DNA of 64,000 nucleotides from Frigoribacterium sp. PhB24. GTDB taxonomy: Bacteria > Actinomycetota > Actinomycetes > Actinomycetales > Microbacteriaceae. The stretch lies in assembly GCF_003755185.1 (NCBI RefSeq), contig NZ_RKIC01000011.1, positions 62,001-126,000 of the forward strand, read 5' to 3'. The position numbers and the translations under genes were made by a program. A model generated the notes under the pieces. That model had not been told where the DNA came from. It saw only the letters and a program-made list of their open reading frames with translations, and did no database searches. Positions 35,756 through 37,127 of the stretch are shown here, one piece after another (the stretch's first letter is position 1; every line of letters begins with the position of its first letter).

Positions 35756-35792
35756 GAAGAGTCGTGTTGCCCCTAGGCAGCGCGGCTCTTCC
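35756..35792 (+). terminator. Terminator hairpin after the NlpC/P60 gene
   Basis: GAAGAGTCGTG and CGCGGCTCTTC pair (two G-T pairs) with an inner TGCC/GGCA stem. It lies 33 bases after the stop and just upstream of the HNH leader promoter, so it could alternatively act on that promoter. Confidence 0.5.
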
Positions 35793-35797
35793 GGGGT

Positions 35798-35803
35798 TAG
35801 CCT
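35798..35803 (+). promoter_or_regulatory. Putative -10 box of the HNH attenuator transcript
   Basis: TAGCCT, matching the TAnnnT boxes seen elsewhere in the window, would start a transcript near 35810, about 30 bases before the leader-peptide ATG. Confidence 0.5.
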
Positions 35804-35840
35804 GGCGCTCTCGGAGTTCCGCTGAGACCAGGAGCGTCAC

Positions 35841-35912
35841 ATGAATCGTTCGACCGCCACCCGCACCATGGGTGCGCTGTCGCACGAGCACATACGACAC
35901 CCCGCCATGTGA
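35841..35912 (+). CDS. Leader peptide of the HNH endonuclease gene (23 residues)
   Basis: A short open reading frame with a good ribosome-binding site (CCAGGAGCG). It begins MNRSTATRTM and carries HEHIRHP at residues 15-21, then AM and a TGA. Three His codons fall within six, joined to the codons ATA and CGA, both rare at this GC content; these make a plausible slow or stalling site. It is followed four bases later by an intrinsic terminator. Codons 11-14 (35871-35881) are complementary to the sequence at 35911-35921 that forms the start of the terminator stem. This is the layout of ribosome-mediated attenuation. The gene is too short for routine calling and its expression is inferred. Confidence 0.65.
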   Translation: MNRSTATRTMGALSHEHIRHPAM

Positions 35913-35921
35913 CAGAGCACC
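35871..35921 (+). promoter_or_regulatory. Antiterminator pairing in the HNH leader
   Basis: GGTGCGCTGTC (35871-35881) pairs with GACAGAGCACC (35911-35921), ten of eleven positions. The second segment overlaps the 5' arm of the terminator (35916-35924), so the two structures exclude each other. Confidence 0.6.
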
Positions 35922-35943
35922 GTCCCCGTGACGGTGCTTTTTT
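35916..35943 (+). terminator. Intrinsic terminator (attenuator) before the HNH gene
   Basis: AGCACCGTC-CCCGT-GACGGTGCT followed by six T. It is the only hairpin in the window with a classic T-tract, and it lies between the leader peptide and the HNH gene rather than after a gene. Confidence 0.85.
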
Positions 35944-36026
35944 CGTATCGGTGGGCCCGTCGGTCCTGCGCAGCCCCGAGAGATCGAATCCCTGGAAGCC
36001 GTCCAGGGTGCTTCGAAAGGGAAAGC

Positions 36027-36521
36027 ATGCGCACTCTCGTCCTGAACGCCGGTTACGAGCCCCTCGCCGTGGTGTCCGACCGGCGGGCCCTCGTCCTCGT
36101 CATGAGCCAGAAGGCGACCGTCGTCGCCGCCGATGCGGAACACCCCGTGCTCGGGGCGGTGATGTCCTGGGATCGCCCGTCCGTGATCGTGCTGACACGG
36201 TACGTGCGCATCCCGCACACACGGCAGATCCCCGTCTCGAGGCGCGGCGTCATGCGGCGCGACTCGCACCGCTGCGCGTATTGCGGGCGGTCGGCGACGA
36301 CGATCGACCACGTGCAGCCGCGGTCGCGGGGCGGGGCGGACAGCTGGGAGAACCTCGTCGCGTGCTGCCTCAAGTGCAACAACCTCAAGAGCGACCGCAC
36401 CCCGCACGAGATGGGCTGGGAGCTGCTCGTCACGCCCAAGCCGCCACACGGGGTCGGCTGGGTCGTGCGCGGCATGGAGCGGACGCAGGCGGACTGGGAC
36501 GAGTACCTCGCCGCCGCGTGA
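36027..36521 (+). CDS. HNH endonuclease
   Basis: A 164-residue HNH-fold nuclease of the widespread actinobacterial single-domain type beginning MRTLVLNAGYEPLAVVSDRRA. The zinc/catalytic core is CAYCGRSATTIDHVQPRSRGGADSW, then NLVACCLKCNNLKSDRTP: two CxxC pairs, catalytic DH and the Asn-containing loop. DNA cleavage is the family chemistry; the biological role is not established. ATG 36027 has AAAGGGAAAG upstream, with a hairpin (CCCTGG/CCAGGG, about 35989-36008) shortly before it. Expression is likely conditional, through the leader-peptide attenuator. It is followed by hairpin B2 and tRNA-Arg. Confidence 0.88.
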   Translation: MRTLVLNAGYEPLAVVSDRRALVLVMSQKATVVAADAEHPVLGAVMSWDRPSVIVLTRYVRIPHTRQIPVSRRGVMRRDSHRCAYCGRSATTIDHVQPRSRGGADSWENLVACCLKCNNLKSDRTPHEMGWELLVTPKPPHGVGWVVRGMERTQADWDEYLAAA

Positions 36522-36677: not shown

Positions 36678-36749
36678 GCCTCTGTAGCTCAATGGAAGAG
36701 CAGTTCCGTCCTAAGGAAAGGGTTGGGGGTTCGAGTCCCTCCAGGGGCA
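36678..36749 (+). tRNA. tRNA-Arg (anticodon CCT)
   Basis: The cloverleaf is complete: acceptor GCCTCTG with CAGGGGC, D-arm GCTC/GAGC, anticodon loop GTCCTAA giving CCT, T-arm TTCGAGT, discriminator A. CCA is not encoded. Its last 13 bases are repeated in each unit of the tandem array that follows. Confidence 0.93.
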
Positions 36750-37127
36750 CTTCTCGCTGGCGCTCGTCGCGCCCCGTCGGGCCTCGAACCCCGCGGCCCG
36801 ACGTCGCTGGCGCGCCGTCCCCTCCAGGGGCACTTCTCGCTGGCAGGGGCACTTCTCGCTGGCGCTCGTCGCGCCCCGTCGGGCCTCGAACCCCGCGGCC
36901 CGACGTCGCTGGCGCGCCGTCCCCTCCAGGGGCACTTCTCGCTGGCGCTCGCCGCGCCCCGTCGGGCCTCGAACCCCGCGGCCCGACGTCGCTGGCGCGC
37001 CGTCCCCTCCAGGGGCACTTCTCGCTGGCGCTCGTCGCGCCCCGTCGGGCCTCGAACCCCGCGGCCCGACGTCGCTGGCGCGCCGTCCCCTCCAGGGGCA
37101 CTTCTCGCCGGCGCTCGTCGCGCCCCG
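36737..37127 (+). repeat. 83-bp tandem repeat array containing the tRNA-Arg 3' end
   Basis: Units start at 36737, 36820, 36922, 37005 and 37088 (the last partial, to 37127). The period is 83 bases, except that unit two has an extra 19-base internal duplication (CAGGGGCACTTCTCGCTGG). Each unit begins with the tRNA 3' end (CCCTCCAGGGGCAC) and contains the hairpin GTCGGGC/GCCCGAC (first copy 36776-36802). Units differ by very few bases. There is no coding sequence in 36750-37156; open readings through it are artefacts of the repeat. Confidence 0.92.

Follow-up and report, generated by a model that had tools for sequence, protein, structure and literature searches.

The whiB7 leader of actinobacteria associates an upstream ORF (uORF) and a terminator before a gene that is not biosynthetic. 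In Streptomyces, the control exerted through bldA relies on UUA codons placed in the controlled genes themselves. In the ilvB-type uORF attenuators of Actinobacteria, an intrinsic terminator is overlapped or directly adjoined by a short ORF (PMC1262725, PMC10272879, PMC13236596). Outside this phylum, the toiL uORF of the E. coli topAI-yjhQ locus places a gene of a toxin-antitoxin pair, again not biosynthetic, under the control of translation stress (PMC12121999). Our search of the open literature, which covered titles and abstract openings, returned no paper on a leader before the HNH gene studied here, nor on an AUA-gated actinobacterial leader.

The window, i.e. the whole stretch of 64,000 nucleotides analysed here, carries a leader ORF and an intrinsic terminator before a gene for an HNH endonuclease (Table 1). 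A sequence-only reading had proposed at this place a ribosome-mediated attenuator, composed of a TAGCCT -10 box, a 23-residue leader ORF with its Shine-Dalgarno, a segment of the leader complementary at 10 of 11 positions to the start of the terminator, and a hairpin followed by six T; all these elements were found as described. The hairpin was also said to be the only T-tract terminator of the window, which holds in a narrower form: our scan gave 19 loose candidates, among which it is the sole one with more than 7 pairs (it has 11) and the sole one with a six-T run. Its T-run is 83 bases away from the HNH gene, and the segment 35816-35948 folds far more strongly than its shuffles (z = -5.5).

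Table 1. Features of the HNH leader and of its surroundings, in window coordinates.
Feature	Position	Strand	Basis
-10-like element TTAGCCT, putative leader promoter	35797..35803 (TAGCCT 35798-35803)	+	sequence
Shine-Dalgarno AGGAG of the leader ORF	35830..35834	+	GGAG columns nearly invariant in alignment A3
Leader ORF, 23 codons, MNRSTATRTMGALSHEHIRHPAM, stop TGA directly 5' of the terminator stem	35841..35912	+	
HP1, ACCCG-CACCA-TGGGT, nt 19-33 of the leader ORF	35859..35873	+	pairing by position, covariation
Alternative pairing, 5' strand GGTGCGCTGTC, partner 35911-35921	35871..35881	+	10/11 complementarity
AUA (ATA), codon 18 of the leader ORF	35892..35894	+	aligned leaders
Intrinsic terminator, 11-bp stem, six T	35914..35943 (stem-loop 35914-35940; T 35938-35943)	+	
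HP2, CCCTGGA-AGCCG-TCCAGGG, just 5' of the HNH Shine-Dalgarno	35990..36008	+	
HNH endonuclease gene, 164 aa, 3' of the leader	36027..36521	+	Pfam HNH 1.7e-13

The -10-like element is not peculiar to the window: among 66 thinned leaders, 40 have TTANNYT at a position between -80 and -22 relative to their start, mostly at -41 to -46, versus 6% of shuffles. The leader corresponds to no known family of the Rfam covariance models; two tRNAs are the only features of the window to attain the gathering score, and the single match between 35700 and 36100 (E 0.64) has 14.2 bits for a gathering score of 40. The gene located 5' of the leader codes for an NlpC/P60 protein. Between its stop and the -10 box of the leader, an inverted repeat GAAGAG...CTCTTC (35756-35793) is visible by eye and is possibly the terminator, devoid of T-tract, of this upstream gene.

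The HNH protein has a match (E <= 1e-3) in 130 of 150 Microbacteriaceae genomes, a few being weak or partial. We loaded 128 HNH loci and oriented 125 of them through a motif at the HNH start (L065, L083 and L089 were not oriented); near-duplicates are included, the distinct segments being 113. A terminator-like hairpin lies within about 160 nt 5' of HNH in 118 of the 125 oriented loci, the other 7 having none under the same rule. It is present as well in all of the 80 named loci, a set not independent of the former as it comes partly from the same genomes. A covariance model of the leader, R1, was built from 42 sequences and run on 60 genomes of the family, a match being called strong at E <= 1e-5. 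Strong matches were obtained in 41 genomes, partly by construction because some sequences of the model were taken from the genomes scanned, and every one is located just 5' of HNH. They cover 41 of the 50 genomes with a full-length HNH (9 are missed) and neither of the two with a weak or partial HNH; none was obtained in the 8 genomes devoid of HNH, where the best E is 0.011. As all strong matches are just 5' of HNH and none occurs without it, the leader is, judging from this distribution, a conserved cis element of the HNH gene. A free sRNA or small-protein gene is rejected on the same figures: all 41 strong matches adjoin HNH, not one falls in the 8 genomes that lack HNH, and no second strong match appears in any of the 60 genomes. 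The closest named record is that of Frigoribacterium sp. VKM Ac-2836, with 98% identity for the HNH protein (the genome of the window itself being possibly excluded). We also noticed an HNH 72% identical to that of the window on a contig labelled Acidobacteria (L292), which is probably mis-binned.

The internal geometry of the leader is also constrained. In 58 of 67 leaders, the in-frame start nearest to HP1 precedes it by 18 nt. Taken by position alone, HP1 is 80% paired in 66 leaders, and no other offset between 6 and 33 exceeds 54%; when the 3' arms are swapped between leaders, the pairs fall from 3.98 of 5 to 3.09 (maximum of 1000 shuffles, 3.41). For HP1 and the terminator considered together in 42 sequences, 97.3% of the cells are paired and 66 cells have changed on both sides versus 17.7 in shuffles; the alignment was not fitted to structure, and its 42 rows were selected from 69 because HP1 was clear in them, a choice that biases the result towards HP1. 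Changes on both sides concern 3 of the 5 pairs of HP1 and 8 of the 11 pairs of the terminator. Among 66 thinned leaders, 39 have their stop at -1 to +2 relative to the terminator stem, 16 at +15 to +18 and 11 elsewhere, and the placement is similar among 65 leaders from the named loci. If a ribosome masks about 26 nt, the value used in PMC13236596, a ribosome on the stop would cover the 5' arm of the terminator, whereas a ribosome on an AUA at codon 18 would leave the terminator free.

Relative to usage in the window, this AUA is the most over-represented codon of the leaders: ATA has the highest ratio in the leader codon table and occurs once in the 15,893 codons of the 41 long ORFs of the window, ATC occurring 507 times. 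The leader ORFs were picked by their Shine-Dalgarno, start and stop position, ATA not being a criterion; at some loci this rule seems to have taken the wrong ORF. In the 66 thinned Microbacteriaceae leaders (2250 codons) we nevertheless count 60 ATA in frame versus 5 and 8 out of frame; codon 18 accounts for 32 of the 60 and other places for 28. Among the 80 named loci, 65 passed the leader-ORF rule and 15 failed; the 65 leaders contain 62 ATA in frame versus 6 and 3 off frame, borne by 54 ORFs, with codon 18 concerned 47 times, and the HNH ORFs of the 80 loci contain 3 in 13,119 codons. When the leaders are aligned on HP1 (67 aligned), the column of codon 18 has Ile in 36 of 66 cases, always written ATA (36/36), never ATC or ATT. 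The residues around it vary with the genus—HIR, DIW, DIR or AIR—which indicates that the codon, not the peptide, is conserved. Conservation of the peptide HEHIRHP, put forward as a check of the attenuator, is therefore not what we find; it is AUA at codon 18 that is kept. Of the two leader codons presented as rare, ATA deserves the term; CGA, with 6.5 per thousand in the same 41 ORFs, is not especially rare. Some leaders, e.g. in Cryobacterium and Labedella, lack AUA and keep the other elements. As far as codon usage can tell, AUA is probably the gating codon of the leader.

Starvation for His had also been suggested as the signal. His codons (CAC, CAT) are common in the leaders, 150 in frame versus 51 and 216 off frame; since one off frame holds more of them than the reading frame, the sensing of His codons is not singled out. 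We note all the same that some f15 and a few f1 leader ORFs are visibly rich in His codons, as at L145-L159 (f15) and at L091 and L108 (HHRVHHHHV, RHHSHHCFHHHC). In such leaders His may be a further codon that is sensed, or may give a nascent peptide that binds metal.

The reading that we prefer, and to which we give about an even chance, is that expression of HNH needs a ribosome to finish the AUA-gated leader and thereby to block the terminator. Transcription would start about 30 nt 5' of the leader ORF, as placed from the -10 box. Translation would be required: the ribosome would initiate on the leader and have to decode the rare AUA, usually at codon 18, with HP1 just behind it, this decoding being the presumed regulated step. 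If in step with RNA polymerase, the ribosome would end on the stop at the foot of the terminator stem (or in its loop), the terminator would not form and HNH would be transcribed. With a ribosome paused at AUA, or with no translation, the terminator would fold and the RNA would stop 5' of HNH. We infer the direction of the switch, completion for ON and pause at AUA for OFF, from the position of the stop and of AUA relative to the ribosome footprint. Against this reading stand the 9 of 50 genomes with full-length HNH that R1 misses, and the leaders lacking AUA. The ribosome-dependent attenuator initially claimed before HNH is well supported by sequence, since the -10 element, the leader ORF and the terminator tied to HNH have proved conserved, but its exclusive antiterminator is not; what the leader features suggest is a ribosome-mediated attenuation in altered form, with AUA as probable gate and no antiterminator conserved beyond the genus.

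The antiterminator is precisely the centre of the classical alternative, in which a stall at AUA or nearby would free a segment of the leader to pair with the 5' arm of the terminator and so turn HNH on. In the window this pairing involves 10 of 11 positions, with a duplex of about -19 kcal/mol (z -4.2), and the AUA codon sits between the two pairing strands; in the 16 genomes of the genus, it reaches -15 kcal/mol or better in 10. However, it drops to -8.1 to -13.5 kcal/mol in the other 6, where the terminator stays at -17 to -23 kcal/mol, and over 69 thinned leaders the pairing with the terminator 5' arm is not above shuffles (mean z +0.34; 5 leaders below -1, 21 above +1). Judged on these values, a mutually exclusive antiterminator is not conserved family-wide, and it is mostly within the genus of the window that the alternative pairing occurs. 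Moreover a ribosome on the stop, which sits at the stem, would itself cover the 5' arm of the terminator. A classical attenuator thus appears rather unlikely to us. Pairing with the 3' arm is slightly favourable in the same 69 leaders (mean z -0.30; 14 below -1, 5 below -2), a weak signal which leaves room for a weak alternative fold through this arm. In the genus of the window, the alternative pairing could form during a stall at AUA; the control would then have the opposite sign to that of the completion reading.

A simpler view is that the weakly translated ORF and the terminator form a spacer keeping HNH low by default, with no sensed signal, AUA merely slowing translation. AUA is indeed very rare, an HNH made in excess may be harmful, and we know of no signal for this leader. 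Nevertheless, a conserved codon position, covarying hairpins and an overlap of stop and terminator across many genera are more than a passive spacer needs, so that we consider this view improbable.

The hairpins lead to another view. Taking the best stems with a 5-nt loop, 82 of 113 Microbacteriaceae regions have AGCCG or AGCCA as the HP2 loop. Elsewhere in the order the same loops are found in 7 of 56 regions, and a class-level set has them in 10 of 56 (4 of the 56 being from within the order); in letter shuffles an NNCCR loop is found 245 times in 4760. Loops AGCCA stand on stems of 6-8 pairs in f37, f44, f47, f26 and f41. A loose HP2-like pattern, pairing not required, occurs at 87 and 91 places of the genome of the window versus 146 and 126 in the reversed control. 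A role of HP1 and HP2 as DNA operator is disfavoured, for the stems change with compensation and the loops are constant. HP2, and perhaps HP1 with its similar loop, is a likely protein-binding site. That HNH itself or another protein controls expression by binding HP1 and HP2 through their A[NNCCR]U loops, the ORF and AUA being secondary, would agree with stems that vary and loops that stay within the family and in other families of the class, but is very improbable, as it leaves the in-frame selection of AUA unexplained and as the best 5-nt-loop hairpin has a different loop in f36 and several other families.

Outside Microbacteriaceae, 41 loci from the Actinomycetales were read and 39 gave a leader ORF, the choice of the ORF by rule looking wrong at some loci. 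ATA is found 28 times in frame versus 6 and 2 in the 2106 codons of these 39 ORFs; it is held by 13 ORFs, all from f7, f15 and f16, and none was found in the leader ORFs read for f8, f11, f17 and f19. In part of these families the ORF ends inside HNH: at +19 in all 10 loci of f15, at +4 in 4 of 8 loci of f7, and at +1 in 4 of 11 loci of f16; the hairpin of f15 has hardly any T-tract. Where the leader ORF overlaps the HNH start, the same dependence on the leader could operate through translational coupling. By eye, we saw no clear leader of this kind in f5, f6, f9 and f2, and none in the class-level loci viewed.

The controlled gene itself gives few indications, and we found no role for it in the literature searched. 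Its protein matches IscB with 51.2 bits, for a curated cut-off of 175, and the match is limited to the HNH domain; an IscB or Cas9 nuclease is rejected on this ground. The structure prediction has a mean pLDDT of 60, the N-terminal part and the tail being of low confidence. With the phage family phrog_16726 (1.3e-32) the match spans residues 1-143 and takes in this N-terminal part; with the remaining PHROG families of the list it begins at about residue 59. The window has a tRNA gene 3' of HNH (36678-36749); of 24 named relatives that we scanned, 11 have a tRNA-Arg(CCT) no more than about 1.5 kb beyond HNH. The 3' end of the tRNA gene and the sequence downstream recur several times in a tandem array (36742-37127), whose units of 83 and 102 bases are 98-100% alike. 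The HNH gene is widespread in the family, and its leader points to translation and one rare codon as its control input.

How does this leader compare with the systems mentioned at the beginning? As the trp/ilvB-type attenuators, it has a putative leader ORF with start and Shine-Dalgarno and an intrinsic terminator between leader and gene. It has no conserved mutually exclusive antiterminator (69 leaders; strong in 10 of 16 genus genomes only), nor the run of codons for an amino acid whose synthesis depends on the downstream gene: the leaders have mostly a single AUA, and the gene codes for an HNH protein. It shares with the whiB7 leader a uORF and a terminator before a non-biosynthetic gene, but the downstream genes are unrelated. 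The likeness with the ilvB-type systems is that of a short ORF at an intrinsic terminator before an actinobacterial gene; the ilvB-type ORFs contain many Ile, Val and Leu codons and precede a biosynthetic operon, whereas the HNH leader has mostly one rare AUA and precedes a nuclease gene, and an antiterminator is proposed for Corynebacterium and M. tuberculosis, whereas none is conserved beyond the genus here (PMC1262725, PMC10272879, PMC13236596). For toiL, an occlusion of the RBS and then a Rho-dependent termination are proposed (PMC12121999); the HNH leader has an intrinsic terminator.

More generally, we tentatively propose that AUA might be a regulatory codon in Actinomycetales, gating expression on the supply of the tRNA that decodes it. 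HNH would be made only if AUA is decoded fast, the outcome passing through terminator blocking in Microbacteriaceae or through translational coupling in other families, and the paired A[NNCCR]U hairpins would add a protein-responsive layer. The AUA-decoding tRNA is the lysidine-modified tRNA-Ile2. There is then a likeness with the bldA/UUA control, where a very rare codon may also gate expression, with the difference that AUA is in the leader and not in the controlled gene; five f16 leaders (L142, L143, L144, L149 and L153) carry an in-frame UUA (TTA) alongside AUA. If AUA is indeed regulatory, it would be a counterpart of the UUA of Streptomyces, and a nuclease would be linked to the state of a single tRNA.
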